A DNA stretch of 32,045 nucleotides from Leptolyngbyaceae cyanobacterium M33_DOE_097 (GTDB lineage Bacteria > Cyanobacteriota > Cyanobacteriia > Leptolyngbyales > Leptolyngbyaceae): NCBI GenBank assembly GCA_015296075.1, contig DVDV01000278.1, positions 1 through 32,045 on the forward strand, read 5' to 3'. Under the pieces are notes generated by a model, which was not told where the DNA came from, made no database searches, and saw nothing but the letters and a program-made list of their open reading frames with translations. Shown piece by piece: positions 5,354-11,063 of the stretch. Made by a program: the position numbers and the translations under genes. Position 1 is the stretch's first letter; every line of letters begins with the position of its first letter.

Positions 5354-5652
5354 TTATATCTATCTCTATACTGAGCTTAGCTAGAGCTTTCTTCTTAAGC
5401 TTATTCAAATATAAGCTCTATGTTTTCATGCCCAGACCCTGCAAAGCTTTGTACCTAATCATTGAAGGGAATCTAATTCGCTACAAGAAACGGTCTGCAA
5501 ACGGTGTGATTGGGGTTTTGGTGCCTCTCTCAAAACTGCGGCAGATTGCAGAACCTAACATTTGAGTCTTGCCTCTTTAACAGTCATTGCAATTTGTAGG
5601 TTAAGTTTTAGTAGCAGGTTTGCTTTGACTGTCATACCCGGAGGCAGAGTTG
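5354..5652. other. Intergenic region without a gene
   Basis: About 300 bases between the divergent membrane-protein gene and the antitoxin gene. It is AT-rich. Short weak inverted pairs occur near 5385-5420 (AGAGCT / AGCTCT). No RNA gene or clear promoter could be called. A strong ribosome site (GGAGG, 5640-5644) lies at its right edge. Confidence 0.5.
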
Positions 5653-5931
5653 ATGTTGATTACTCTGGAGCTGACCCCCGACCTAGAACTTAAACTGAGG
5701 CAGAGCATTGCGGCTCATGACACTGAGAGTGTTCGTCAGCTATTGGTAGATGCTTTGATACCAACAGTGGAAGCACTCCTACAGCAAGAAGTTGAAGCAT
5801 TACCCACAGAGCAGTTCGAGGTGCTGACCAATCAGCTAGTCGAAGAGTTTGCAACATTTTTTGACTCAACTCCACCAGCCTTGTCAGACTACGCAGTCAG
5901 CCGTGCAGGCATCTATGAGGATCATCCTTGA
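5653..5931 (+). CDS. Antitoxin of a PIN-toxin pair
   Basis: A 92-residue acidic protein directly before a PIN-domain toxin, with only 3 bases between the stop and the toxin's GTG. It has no obvious ribbon-helix-helix or AbrB motif; it is mostly predicted helix with a C-terminal LSDYAVSRAGIYED tail that I associate with small cyanobacterial VapC-partner proteins. The antitoxin role comes mainly from position. GGAGG at 5640-5644 sits 8 bases before the ATG at 5653, which is preferred over the in-frame TTG at 5650. Antitoxins of this type usually bind both the toxin and their own promoter. Confidence 0.7.
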   Translation: MLITLELTPDLELKLRQSIAAHDTESVRQLLVDALIPTVEALLQQEVEALPTEQFEVLTNQLVEEFATFFDSTPPALSDYAVSRAGIYEDHP

Positions 5932-5934
5932 GCT

Positions 5935-6378
5935 GTGATTTATCTGGTCGATACCAATGTTTTGTTGCGCTTTACCGATCGCACTCATACACTGCACTCA
6001 GTCACCCGAACCGCGATTCGCAAGTTGATGAGCGACGGTCACAACCTTAAAATCACCTCACAAAACTACGTTGAATTTTGGAATGTTGCGACTCGTCCCG
6101 CAGATAAGAATGGCTTTGGTCTAACCCCTGCTAAAGCAGAGCGATCGCTGTGCTTGATTGAGCGGCTCTTTCCTGTCTTACCAGATTCGCCAGCGACTTA
6201 CCTTAAATGGCGACGACTGGTTATTTCATTTAGCGTATCAGGAGTGCAAGTACACGATGCTCGTCTAGTAGCGGCAATGAAAGTGAATAATATAGATTGC
6301 ATTTTGACATTCAACGAGGCTGACTTTACCCGTTATGCCAGTGAAGGAGTTGTAGCCATTCATCCAGCAACTGTCTGA
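5935..6378 (+). CDS. PIN-domain ribonuclease toxin, VapC type
   Basis: A 147-residue PIN protein, expected to be a Mg-dependent RNase held inactive by the upstream partner. The acidic active site can be followed: Asp6 in LVDTNVLLR, Glu47 in NYVEFWNV, Asp108 in VQVHDARLVAAM, and the C-terminal ILTFNEADF with Asn127 and Asp130. All the usual PIN residues are present, so it looks intact. The start is a GTG at 5935 three bases after the antitoxin stop, giving translational coupling. The RNA target cannot be told from sequence. Confidence 0.88.
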   Translation: MIYLVDTNVLLRFTDRTHTLHSVTRTAIRKLMSDGHNLKITSQNYVEFWNVATRPADKNGFGLTPAKAERSLCLIERLFPVLPDSPATYLKWRRLVISFSVSGVQVHDARLVAAMKVNNIDCILTFNEADFTRYASEGVVAIHPATV

Positions 6379-6479: not shown

Positions 6480-6812
6480 ATGACAACATCACCCGTCTTA
6501 GCTAAGCAATACGTCGAGCAACGAAATGGAGGATATTGGATTGAGGGAACTCGCATATCCCTTGACTCAGTGGTGTATAGCTTTTTGAATGGAGAGTCTC
6601 CCGAAAGCATTGCTCAATATTTTCCTTTGTTGACCCTTGAACAGGTCTACGGCAGTATTGCTTTTTACTTAGCGAATCGAGAATTGATCGATCAATACCT
6701 GAAAGACGCAGAGACAGAGTTTTTGAAGATGCGACAGACACTCAAAGAGAAGAATGTGCTGCTTTATCAGAAGGTAGACGCCGCTCAGCTTCAAAAACAG
6801 GATAACGAATGA
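6480..6812 (+). CDS. DUF433 family antitoxin
   Basis: A 110-residue protein of the DUF433 family. The core reads as ...YWIEGTRISLDSVVYSFLNGESPESIAQYFP..LTLEQVYGSIAFYLANRELID, with the typical GTRISLDSVV strand and a helix-turn-helix-like LTLEQVYGSIAFYL segment. DUF433 proteins are the usual partners of DUF5615 PIN-like toxins and can bind DNA. The stop overlaps the next ATG (ATGA at 6809-6812), the standard coupling of such pairs. The C-terminal part (about 75-110) is a charged helix likely to contact the toxin. A TetR-like operator copy lies upstream. Confidence 0.85.
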   Translation: MTTSPVLAKQYVEQRNGGYWIEGTRISLDSVVYSFLNGESPESIAQYFPLLTLEQVYGSIAFYLANRELIDQYLKDAETEFLKMRQTLKEKNVLLYQKVDAAQLQKQDNE

Positions 6813-7162
6813 CACCTATTTGCTTCCAGACCGATGCTGATCTAAAACAATCGATTGTGAGCGGTGTATGGCGTAGACAACCTGGTGTTGATTTTCAATC
6901 GGCAAACGCAGCAAACTTTAAGGGTAAAACGGATCAAGAAGTTTTAGCGATCGCGGCTAAAGACGGCAGAGTGTTGGTCACCCATGACCGCAAGACGATG
7001 CCTCTAGAATTTGCAGAATTCATCACAACTCAAACCAGTGCGGGTGTATTAATTCTTTCTCAAACGGCATCAGCGAATGAGGCAATCGAGTGGCTGCTAT
7101 TAGTTTGGGAAGCTTCGATACCCGAAGAATGGCTCAATCGGCTGGTGGCGCTTCCGTTTTGA
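6809..7162 (+). CDS. DUF5615 PIN-like toxin
   Basis: A 117-residue PIN-like protein with the DUF5615 pattern: an early acidic strand (FQTDADL, Asp9/Asp11), a DQEVLAIAAKDGRVLVTHDRKT core with the catalytic-type Asp52 and Asp59, and a SAGVLILSQTAS strand. Expected to be a nuclease toxin neutralised by the DUF433 protein it overlaps by four bases. The N-terminus is a little unusual, since most members begin with a short ...LLDENL strand and here Cys-Phe-Gln-Thr-Asp takes its place, but the acidic position is kept. Nuclease activity not shown by sequence alone. Confidence 0.82.
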   Translation: MTPICFQTDADLKQSIVSGVWRRQPGVDFQSANAANFKGKTDQEVLAIAAKDGRVLVTHDRKTMPLEFAEFITTQTSAGVLILSQTASANEAIEWLLLVWEASIPEEWLNRLVALPF

Positions 7163-7280: not shown

Positions 7281-7859
7281 ATGGCGACGAAGAAACAGTC
7301 CAGTTCAAGAGAGGAAGCGGTGCGTAAGTTGCTGCTGCTGTTTCGTCAGTATGGCTATGAAGGGGCAACCTTAACCCGCATCTCTGAGGCAACGGGTTTG
7401 GGGCGAGCGAGTTTGTACCATCACTTTCCCAAAGGCAAAGAAGAGATGGCAACAGCAGTGCTGGAGTACGTCGATCGCTGGATGGCAGAGAACATTCTGA
7501 ACCCGTTAAAAGCAGATGGCAATCCCGGCGATCGCCTGCAAAATATGGTCACGAAGGTGAACGCGCTCTACGAGTCGGGCGGACGACCCTGCATTTTGGC
7601 GGCGTTGTCGATGGGAGATTCGCACGATCTGTTTTATCGGCAGATTCAAACCGCTCTCCAAAGTTGGATCGACGCGATCTCCCAGGTGCTAATCGACGAT
7701 GGTATTGATGCTGCGAATGCACGCCTGCGAGCCGAAAATGCGATTTTGCAGATTCAAGGGGCACTCATCCTATCGCGAGGTCTCAACAATACAGCACCGT
7801 TTCAACGGGTGTTACAACAATTGCCTGATGAGTTACTGCAACCAGTCCGAGCAAGCTAG
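7281..7859 (+). CDS. TetR/AcrR family transcriptional regulator
   Basis: A 192-residue one-component regulator. The N-terminal DNA-binding domain (about 10-56) shows the TetR helix-turn-helix with ATLTRISEATGLGRASLYHHFPKGKEEM. The C-terminal helical ligand domain (about 60-190) is of the LmrA/YxaF-like type (GGRPCILAALSMGDSH). Such repressors typically bind dyads with GACCGA-type half sites, as seen in its own promoter and again before the DUF433 gene. It probably represses itself. The next genes downstream code for proteins of unknown function and begin 90 bases later, so they could be its targets too. The ligand is unknown. Confidence 0.9.
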   Translation: MATKKQSSSREEAVRKLLLLFRQYGYEGATLTRISEATGLGRASLYHHFPKGKEEMATAVLEYVDRWMAENILNPLKADGNPGDRLQNMVTKVNALYESGGRPCILAALSMGDSHDLFYRQIQTALQSWIDAISQVLIDDGIDAANARLRAENAILQIQGALILSRGLNNTAPFQRVLQQLPDELLQPVRAS

Positions 7860-7948: not shown

Positions 7949-8866
7949 ATGACCTATTTGTGCATTACCATGCTGCTCTCCACTAGAAAGTTTGTTTGTT
8001 CACAGGTTTTGGCTGGGTTCGTTGTGTTGGTTGGCAGTACTTTTTTAAGTGGAAGTGTTGGGGCAGTGCCAAAGCCCGATCAAGAAATGATCCCCAAGGC
8101 GACAGTGTTGCGATTGCTCAAGTGCCCCGGCGATTGCGTTAAGAATATGCAGTTACTTGTGGGTCGGTTGCCTGACAACTTTCTAGTGAAGTTGCCGCTA
8201 CCCACAGATGCCAAAATCGTGGCAACCATTATTCGTGATCAAGATCGATCTGAAGTTGTTTTGGATTCGCCTCAATCCCCTCAACAAATTAAAGCGTTTT
8301 ACACAAAATCCTTTATCGCGTCAGGTTGGAAAACAGAACCGTCGCTTCCAGAGGCTCCTGGTTTCCTTCCATCGCTGCCTGATTTTCCATACACCCGGTT
8401 CTGCCAATCAGAGCAAGGGCCTGAAATGACGCTTTCAGCCAACAAAGATGGAAATGAACCGACTGATGTTCGGCTTTATTTCAACCTTAAATCTGAAAAT
8501 TGTGCTGAGTCTGATGAGACAGCGGAGGCAACTCCTGATTGGCAGGATTGGTTCCCTATCCCCAGTTTGACTCCACCAGAGGATAGTGAAGTGAGCCAAA
8601 CTGATTTGAGTCCTCAGAGCGACATGCTGATTGCGAGTGCCCAAGTCACTACTAAAAAAAGCCAGGAAGCGTTACTCAGTGACTACAGCAGCCAACTCGT
8701 GAAAGCAGGTTGGAGGCAACAAAATCAAACCAAGACTGAGCAATCAACCTCAAGTTTTCTGATATTTAAGGACAAGAAAGGCACTACCTGGCAAGGCATG
8801 CTTAAACTTTCACCCATTGAAGACCAACCCAACGATTACGCAGCCACACTACTTGTTTGGCGGTAA
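7949..8866 (+). CDS. Hypothetical exported protein, paralog 1
   Basis: A 305-residue protein of no family I recognise. The N-terminus has a signal peptide: a basic start (STRKF), a hydrophobic core LAGFVVLVGSTFL and a probable cleavage after Val-Gly-Ala, so it should be exported. The ATG at 7970 (residue 8) is an equally good start and makes the signal peptide more typical. The mature part holds two related-looking halves: ...LPLPTDAKIVATII...IKAFYTKSFIASGW and ...SEVSQTDL...LLSDYSSQLVKAGW, each ending in an AxGW motif. The downstream gene is a clear paralog. Both may be repeats of one fold that tests the difference of two quantities, but no function can be assigned. Confidence 0.75.
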   Translation: MTYLCITMLLSTRKFVCSQVLAGFVVLVGSTFLSGSVGAVPKPDQEMIPKATVLRLLKCPGDCVKNMQLLVGRLPDNFLVKLPLPTDAKIVATIIRDQDRSEVVLDSPQSPQQIKAFYTKSFIASGWKTEPSLPEAPGFLPSLPDFPYTRFCQSEQGPEMTLSANKDGNEPTDVRLYFNLKSENCAESDETAEATPDWQDWFPIPSLTPPEDSEVSQTDLSPQSDMLIASAQVTTKKSQEALLSDYSSQLVKAGWRQQNQTKTEQSTSSFLIFKDKKGTTWQGMLKLSPIEDQPNDYAATLLVWR

Positions 8867-8897
8867 CTCAAACTTCATTAACTGCAATTAAAAAGCA

Positions 8898-8926
8898 GCT
8901 GGGGAACCCATTCTCCAGCGCTTTTT
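8898..8926 (+). terminator. Rho-independent terminator after paralog 1
   Basis: A 9-bp stem GCTGGGGAA / TTCTCCAGC (one G-T pair) with a CCCA loop is followed by GCTTTTT. It lies 32 bases after the paralog 1 stop and separates it from paralog 2. Confidence 0.7.
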
Positions 8927-8980
8927 GAAGCCTGCCATTTCCACTGATAGCCACTAAGCCTGAATGAGACCGTTAGAGTG

Positions 8981-9805
8981 ATGTCAACGCAAGATCAAGA
9001 ATTGATTCCTAAGTCTGTCTTACTGAGGTTACTGAAGGATCCGTTTGAACGCCTCACAGACTTGCAGTTTTGGAATGGCCAGTTACCGCCTGATTTTCTG
9101 ATGGAGTTGCCATTGCCAGTCGATGCCAAAATCATTGGAACCATCGTGCGTTATCAAGGGCGATCGTCCGAAGTGATTTTAGATGCACCTCAGTCACAGC
9201 GGCAAATTCACGAGTTTTACGCGAATGTATTGCCTGCCTCTGGTTGGACTCTCAGTGAACAAGAACCGCCATCACCAGGGTTTCAAACTACTACACCTGG
9301 AGGGTTTGAGTACCCGACTATTTATTGTCATAGTGAGCAACAGCGCTCACTGACACTTGAGGCGGATCAAAATGGCGATGACCCCACAGATATTCGTCTT
9401 CGTCTCGATTTAGACTTTAGTGCCTGCGCTACTCGTGCCGAAATTGCCCAATCGAGAACTTGGAACCAGGAATTCTACTTTCCAATGCCAAGTCTAACTC
9501 TGCCAGAAAATGTTCAGATCAGCCAATCTCGTTTAGAAAGAGGCGGTGATAAAAACAACATTACACTTCTGTCGAGCGCTCAGATTAATACGACCAAAAG
9601 CCAAGAGCCGCTATTTTGTGATTATGCAGAGCAGTTAGTTAACGCAGGCTGGAGCCATCAGCATAAAGTGACCATCGAGCAATCAATCTCTAGTTTTTGG
9701 CTCATTAAAGATGTGCAGGGCAATGCTTGGCAAGGCATGTTTAAATTGACTCAGATTGAGGGGCAACCCAATGAGTATGCGGCCTCGTTACTGATTTGGC
9801 AGTAG
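8981..9805 (+). CDS. Hypothetical protein, paralog 2 without signal peptide
   Basis: A 274-residue paralog of the preceding protein, aligning from its mature N-terminus to its end: DQELIPKSVLLRLLKD..., LPLPVDAKIIGTIV, PASGW, then LLSSAQINTTKSQEPLF, VNAGW and the final EYAASLLIWQ. The repeated half structure is also kept. It begins at an ATG (8981), or at the GTG just before (8978), and stop codons upstream rule out a longer start, so it has no signal peptide and should stay in the cytoplasm unless it has another export route. A terminator between the two genes means it probably has its own promoter. Function unknown. Confidence 0.75.
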   Translation: MSTQDQELIPKSVLLRLLKDPFERLTDLQFWNGQLPPDFLMELPLPVDAKIIGTIVRYQGRSSEVILDAPQSQRQIHEFYANVLPASGWTLSEQEPPSPGFQTTTPGGFEYPTIYCHSEQQRSLTLEADQNGDDPTDIRLRLDLDFSACATRAEIAQSRTWNQEFYFPMPSLTLPENVQISQSRLERGGDKNNITLLSSAQINTTKSQEPLFCDYAEQLVNAGWSHQHKVTIEQSISSFWLIKDVQGNAWQGMFKLTQIEGQPNEYAASLLIWQ

Positions 9806-10106: not shown

Positions 10107-11063
10107 ATGTTTGCTGACTCACGTTGGATTCTTGAAAATGCTCGTTTTTTGCGACAATTGGCGGCGCTACTCAATGCAGGCGTGCCAATTCAGCAAGCTT
10201 TGAGCATGGCAGGGCGTGACTGTAGCAAAGAGTTGCAAAAAGCCTTACAAATTGCCAGTCAGTACGTTACCACAGGGCAAGGTTTGGCCGAGTCTTTGAA
10301 GCTCGCATCGAGACGATTTGATCGCTGGACTCTCAGCCTCATCTATGCGGCTGAAGAGAGTGGGGCGCTTCCAGAAACCTGCGATCGCCTGGCAAATAAT
10401 TTTGAAATTCAAATTAGACGGCGACGGCTCTATCGGTCGGTTGCCTTCTTTTGCTTGTTGTTGATGCTGGGTAGCTGCGTTTTTATCTTTGCTTTGATGC
10501 AACGGAGCTTGCATTTTTTGTGGCTGCCGCGATTTTGGATCTGGCTTGTGGTGGTGAGCATCGCTTTTTGGGGTTTGCTGCGCTGGACAAATGCGCAATA
10601 CCAGGGGCAAGCCTTGCTGCGATCGCTGTCGCGGCTACCGATGATTACGCCGATTGTGGAAGCGCGATCAATGATTTATTTGAGCGAGTTGGCGATCGCT
10701 TTACAGTCAGGGCTTTCACTTTTGCAAGGGCTAGATTTATTACAACGACGGATCCCTGACCCGGTGTTAGTCAACCAGTTAGAATTGGCGACTCAGCAGG
10801 TTAAACAGGGGCATACACTCAGCCAGGGCTTAGCCGGAAAAGTGCCTCTGGTTGCCTTTCAAATGGTGCGGGTCGGAGAAGAAACCGGAGATTTGGGGCG
10901 ATCGCTGCAAAAAATGGGCGAATACTATGAGGCTCAGCTTTACTATCGGTTGCGCCAACTCTACGCGACATTACGCCCCATTACGTTAATTGCACTGGGG
11001 GCGATCGTCTTGCTGGCTGGAGTTCAGACCATCAGCAATTTGCTAAATCGGCTGCCGAGCTAA
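10107..11063 (+). CDS. GspF/PilC-like inner-membrane protein
   Basis: A 318-residue type II secretion F family protein, the platform protein of type IV pili or type II secretion. Two T2SSF domains are visible, about 12-107 and 190-290, each with the LxxLLxAGxPxxQAL...GEETG layout (first copy LAALLNAGVPIQQAL ... AAEESGALPE, second copy ELAIALQSGLSLLQGL ... RVGEETGDLG). Three membrane segments lie near 111-131, 142-159 and 288-308. At 318 residues it is shorter than PilC (about 400) and lacks its N-terminal cytoplasmic stretch. No other pilus gene is nearby, so its partner system is unknown. The last 21 bases overlap the end of bioD on the other strand. Confidence 0.85.
   Translation: MFADSRWILENARFLRQLAALLNAGVPIQQALSMAGRDCSKELQKALQIASQYVTTGQGLAESLKLASRRFDRWTLSLIYAAEESGALPETCDRLANNFEIQIRRRRLYRSVAFFCLLLMLGSCVFIFALMQRSLHFLWLPRFWIWLVVVSIAFWGLLRWTNAQYQGQALLRSLSRLPMITPIVEARSMIYLSELAIALQSGLSLLQGLDLLQRRIPDPVLVNQLELATQQVKQGHTLSQGLAGKVPLVAFQMVRVGEETGDLGRSLQKMGEYYEAQLYYRLRQLYATLRPITLIALGAIVLLAGVQTISNLLNRLPS

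Follow-up and report, generated by a model that had tools for sequence, protein, structure and literature searches.

A tandem version of a predicted Mog1p/PsbP/DcrB-like fold in a pair of cyanobacterial paralogues, one with and one without a signal peptide

We analyzed two adjacent genes of a cyanobacterial draft genome, ORF A and ORF B, and propose, with a probability of about one half, that they are lineage-specific duplicates of an unannotated two-domain protein of the Mog1p/PsbP/DcrB fold. A would be an exported binding or adaptor module and B a duplicate relocated to the cytosol, and the two would not constitute a sensor pair coupled to the TetR regulator encoded in front of them. The sequences show a duplication within the protein, a duplication of the gene and the lack of a signal peptide in B.

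Results

The analyzed window is an entire contig of 32,045 bases (C286), part of a draft genome of 6.96 Mb. Its named relatives and the 46 GCGATCGC sites of the window point to a cyanobacterial origin. ORF A (7949-8866, plus strand, 305 aa) and ORF B (8978-9805, plus strand, 275 aa) have the coordinates given in the original prediction, and they follow, on the same strand and in that order, the gene of a TetR-family regulator with an LmrA/YxaF-like C-terminal domain (7281-7859, plus strand). The presence of such a regulator in front of the pair had been proposed and was supported by Pfam (PF00440, E 4e-10; PF21993, E 3.6e-12). The TetR gene and A are separated by 90 bp, and A and B by 111 bases. 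Another in-frame ATG of A is found at 7970, and B starts with a GTG and has an ATG at 8981. The gap between A and B contains a terminator-like hairpin (8888-8928, plus strand) with a match in the terminator scan at 8898-8919. The folding energy of the region 8880-8935 was -23.5 kcal/mol (z -4.37), none of 200 shuffles was as stable, and a T run was present. Since terminator-like matches were at the chance level (5 vs 3.4 expected), it is the folding energy that argues for this hairpin. Promoter-like matches were no more frequent than chance either (4 vs 3.2 expected).

Regarding the other genes of the window, a stand-alone gene downstream of B (10107-11063) encodes a PilC-like protein of 318 aa with a T2SS F domain (PF00482, E 5.5e-39), shorter than the majority of the PilC/GspF models matched. 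Upstream, a PIN-domain toxin-like gene (5935-6378; PF01850, E 1.7e-10) is preceded by a small unmatched ORF (5650-5931), as in a toxin-antitoxin-like pair, and a second toxin-antitoxin-like module, composed of DUF433 and DUF5615 genes overlapping by 4 bases (6480-7162), lies directly upstream of the TetR gene. None of the neighbours of A and B that were scanned was recognized as a secretion effector gene. The GC3 was 0.45 in A and B vs 0.57 in the TetR gene and 0.55 in the T2SS F gene; 46 GCGATCGC sites were counted across the window and none of them was in A or B. Given this lower GC3 and the lack of GCGATCGC sites, it is possible that A and B were acquired from elsewhere.

Signal peptides were assigned throughout from a hydropathy window and by reading the translations by eye. 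The N-terminus of A shows 'RK' and then a hydrophobic stretch with a probable cleavage between SVGA and VPKP, after residue 39 (7949-8065, plus strand). No lipobox was present. This signal peptide is of the Sec type, and it becomes tighter when the ATG at 7970 is taken as the start. In B, an in-frame stop is located about nine codons 5' of the GTG and the A-B gap contains no hydrophobic stretch in any frame, so that no choice of start codon provides B with a signal peptide. The suggestion that only the first of the two proteins carries a signal peptide, and that the upstream gene actually has one, was thus borne out by hydropathy and reading by eye.

A and B were 49% identical (131/270 identities, 246 bits, E 7e-86) in an alignment spanning residues 44-305 of A, confirming that these tandem paralogues align over the mature length. 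Each protein had also been described as internally duplicated. When the profiles of the first and second halves of 36 family units were compared, we obtained an hhalign probability of 96.1 with an E of 3e-9 and a score of 51.9. As the top score of the same comparison in 100 column-shuffled controls was 16.3, the internal duplication is real. The original prediction placed a repeated AxGW at the end of each half: the repeat does exist (ASGW and KAGW in A), but the (A)GW follows a helix in the middle of the domain. In the AlphaFold2 models, both halves follow the order beta-beta-alpha-GW-beta-beta-beta. The two domains of A cover approximately residues 66-180 (8144-8488, plus strand) and 203-305 (8555-8863, plus strand), and the alignment to A places those of B at 9059-9415 and 9491-9802 (plus strand). 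Six residues (P75, P85, P205, L207, Q249 and W255) are invariant in 19 single-unit proteins, B included. Each unit thus contains two homologous domains, and in both of them the helix is followed by a conserved GW, as would be the case for a new tandem Mog1p/PsbP-like family.

The full model of A, obtained with AlphaFold2 from an alignment of seven rows, was of moderate confidence (mean pLDDT 67.9, pTM 0.47), with pLDDT values of 81-92 per block from residue 231 onward. The predicted half 2 could be superposed on DcrB, Mog1 and PsbP: the matches to DcrB (6e8a, rmsd 2.1, 90 residues aligned) and SciW (6xrr) both reached Z 10.7, followed by PA1624 (9.3), EagT6 (8.4), Mog1 (7.7), BamC (7.6) and PsbP (7.4). 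We assign half 2 of this model to the Mog1p/PsbP-like fold with fair confidence. The model of domain 1 alone (pTM 0.71) had PA1624 as its best match (Z 8.2 over 105 residues), all others being at 6.7 or below; DcrB (Z 6.7, rmsd 4.0) was within the range of chance arrangements, and PsbP, Mog1 and LpqN were at about 5. The prediction of the same fold for half 1 is based mainly on its homology to half 2. Foldseek's own E values were weak (best 0.018 and 0.031), and the sequence search against solved structures detected no convincing relative (best E 0.57; none in a second search). As both halves are predicted to be Mog1p/PsbP/DcrB-like, A and B would represent a known envelope/adaptor fold in a tandem form that is so far unannotated.

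Neither protein matched a family of Pfam, NCBIfam, PHROGs or PADLOC at E 1, and these databases thus gave no known family with an ordinary role to which both could belong. The Pfam DcrB model PF08786 did not detect A or B even at E 10; its sole match in this genome was at another locus with an E of 0.34, below the cut-off, and A and B are not members of PF08786 by sequence. The PsbP/CyanoP sequence models of Pfam and NCBIfam gave no match at E 1. The statement that no known family could be recognized therefore remains correct for annotated families, but not for the fold, since both halves look Mog1p/PsbP/DcrB-like. Pfam scans of 27 relatives returned TY-Chap3 in two (best E 0.0038) and DUF4136 in three (best E 0.058); both were set aside since no family was matched in more than three of the 27 and the predicted topology fits DcrB. 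A scan of 10 proteins did not show the TY-Chap3 match. In the titles and abstract openings of the literature, we recognized no description of the tandem family.

The relatives of A and B are patchily distributed and mainly cyanobacterial. Full units were present in at least 15 of 388 genomes of the class (G000, G003, G047 and the twelve named below), a minimum because up to six candidates were scored per genome; nearly all candidates were scored for three families, and no further genome with a full unit was found. By family, full units were detected in 2 of 42 genomes for that of the window, in 6 of 36 for f24 (G084, G096, G185, G256, G262, G298) and in 6 of 63 for f13 (G205, G289, G308, G329, G349, G364). 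In the present genome, A and B are the only members. Exported members were also found on two Deinococcus plasmids, the sole plasmid records found for A. Phage records gave no match, and no relative was found among the 21 pattern matches of a viral-contig scan or the 28 matches of the first genome-contig scan with A. Beyond closely related genomes, no conserved gene neighbourhood pointed to a function.

The architectures include exported single units and double units, the latter mostly non-exported. The non-exported double units measure 560-592 aa (L044, L045, L047, L053, L057), and a single exported one has 636 aa (L049); B and four others (L041, L050, L055, L056) are non-exported single units. 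One genome (G205) carries four exported family genes in tandem, a local expansion (L039, 6453-10708). Decayed copies were also observed: in G298, a copy split between frames lies next to an intact copy (L046, 4905-5850), in G047 an exported copy is broken by a stop (L006/L061), and G096 has a copy with a stop. A lipoprotein of 160 aa (L024, 1309-1791) is essentially one copy of domain 1 behind a lipobox; it had no Pfam family above the cut-off and no plasmid relatives. In a small local set, such one-domain lipoproteins were matched by the domain 1 profile with E values from 3e-11 to 3e-6. Five cyanobacterial proteins of 387-477 aa (L028, L032, L033, L034, L036) have a domain-1-like region followed by C-terminal repeats. 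When the long ones were scanned, Pfam identified SLH repeats (PF00395) in L028, in L062 (at the place of L032) and in L064 (at the place of L033).

The history of the predicted locations was analyzed on a tree of 32 rows. L048 (two units, N-terminus unclear), L060 and L058 (truncated), that is 4 of the 36 units, were left out of the tree and of the final cysteine counts; an earlier cysteine table took in all 36. A and B were sisters (100/98) and the exported protein of G003 came next (99/98), the finer placement being unsure because several branches are long. A single clade of all non-exported rows was rejected (p-AU 8.4e-5), and the signal peptide was gained or lost at least five times. The branch of B was twice as long as that of A (0.80 vs 0.39). 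An even number of cysteines was found in 17 of 17 exported units vs 9 of 15 non-exported ones (Fisher p 0.0055, with related rows treated as independent). A [FY]C...C pair was present in 15 of the 17 exported units, the two without it being from Deinococcus, vs 4 of the 15 non-exported ones. A shares a CPxDC motif with its nearest relative, the exported G003 protein. B has lost this motif; of its three cysteines, two belong to the [FY]C...C pair that is characteristic of the exported members. These cysteine patterns fit the predicted locations. In our reading, B derives from the duplication of a gene for an exported protein and then lost its signal peptide. An exported A and a fairly recent move of B to the cytosol fit both the tree and the cysteines, which prove neither.

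Discussion

The original prediction considered that an exported and a cytosolic copy behind a TetR regulator could be a sensing pair. In such a pair, both proteins would sense or handle the same ligand on the two sides of the membrane under the control of the adjacent regulator. A, B and the TetR gene are indeed adjacent and co-directional, both forms occur in 5 of the 15 genomes among the matches listed (G000, G084, G205, G256, G298), and the signal peptide has come or gone repeatedly on the tree. However, in the four other genomes with two forms these are on separate contigs, and no adjacent exported/non-exported pair was observed at the other family loci examined. Nine of the 15 genomes have one intact class only among the matches listed, G047 being counted there since a stop breaks its exported copy, and G364 falling in neither group on account of its N-terminus. 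A homologue of the window's TetR was found in 0 of 23 other family records (blastp E 1e-6), the hairpin separates A from B, and no inverted repeat with 8-base arms that could be an operator was detected upstream of TetR or A. The separate contigs, the one-class genomes, the lack of TetR homologues elsewhere and the hairpin weaken the regulated pair, which we consider improbable.

The long branch of B can also be read as relaxed constraint in a failing duplicate whose signal peptide disappeared by chance and which is turning into a pseudogene. On reading the sequence, no clear ribosome site was seen for B and no promoter-like match was found just upstream, and the decayed copies of G047, G298 and G096 would be precedents for such an outcome. 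B is nevertheless an intact frame of 275 codons that keeps the six invariant residues, and long, uninterrupted frames also encode several of the other non-exported members in distant genomes, which makes this fate unlikely, although it is the alternative to which we give most weight. An error of sequencing or assembly, which would have removed the signal peptide from one of two ordinary periplasmic proteins, would agree with the cysteine pair retained in B, which is characteristic of the exported members. Since the 111-base gap contains no hydrophobic frame, a single indel there cannot explain the missing signal peptide, and the loss of CPxDC and the odd cysteine count of B also speak against such an error, which appears very improbable.

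Several known systems resemble the predicted domains. PsbP/CyanoP, Mog1, LpqN and Apa/MTC28 are single domains that have the general fold in common with half 2 (Z 6-8), with no detectable sequence similarity to A or B in the Pfam, NCBIfam and solved-structure searches. DcrB (PF08786/DUF1795), a periplasmic lipoprotein of enterobacteria, is similar to A in the fold of half 2, more weakly in that of half 1, and in its export, but differs in that its Pfam model does not match A, which has no lipobox and two domains per chain. The cyanobacterial lipoproteins such as L024 match domain 1 by profile and differ from A in having only one domain and, by eye, a lipobox, and in some cases S-layer homology repeats behind the domain. 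The Eag chaperones SciW and EagT6 (DUF1795, type VI secretion) are cytosolic, as B is expected to be, match half 2 and bring two such domains together as the two chains of a dimer. This dimer is described as a domain-swapped homodimer (PMC7773334), whereas the tandem of A and B is covalent, and transmembrane helices are reported to be gripped in the claw that it forms (PMC7773334, PMC12881460). PA1624 of Pseudomonas aeruginosa (6td9), a periplasmic two-domain protein with no assigned function, is the top match of half 1 and a high one of half 2. Its N-terminal domain has been tied to Mog1p/PsbP-like proteins via DcrB and its second domain is described as OmpA-like (PMC7716261), whereas both domains of A look Mog1p/PsbP-like. 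LpqN is reported to interact with MmpL3 and has been studied with a lipid mimic (PMC7458404).

Coming back to the proposal of lineage-specific duplicates, A would be exported and would reside in soluble form in the periplasm (or the thylakoid lumen), where it would probably contain disulphides. It would serve as a small adaptor or binding module that holds a hydrophobic segment, a lipid or a partner in the envelope. The two linked domains of one chain might take the part that two separate chains play in the domain-swapped Eag claw. B would be the duplicate of an exported gene from which the signal peptide and a pair of cysteines were lost, and as a gene of its own it would now act, or drift, in the cytosol. 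By analogy with these systems, we regard it as most likely that A in the periplasm would bind a protein or some hydrophobic partner, B being a relocated, diverging duplicate. A broader idea, which we consider quite improbable, is that the whole family is a covalent claw of the Eag type deployed repeatedly, and in parallel, on either side of the inner membrane, where exported single units and cytosolic double (four-domain) units would together take care of one hydrophobic client, both ahead of its export and afterwards.

These results name a likely fold for an unannotated family of cyanobacteria and Deinococcus, and they document that its members switched several times between an exported and a non-exported state, with a cysteine content that tracks the location. 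The Mog1p/PsbP/DcrB domain is known mostly as a single domain or a dimer, and this family presents it in tandem and four-domain arrangements. If the claw idea were true, these proteins would make it possible to study the binding of hydrophobic clients by this fold in a soluble system with one chain.
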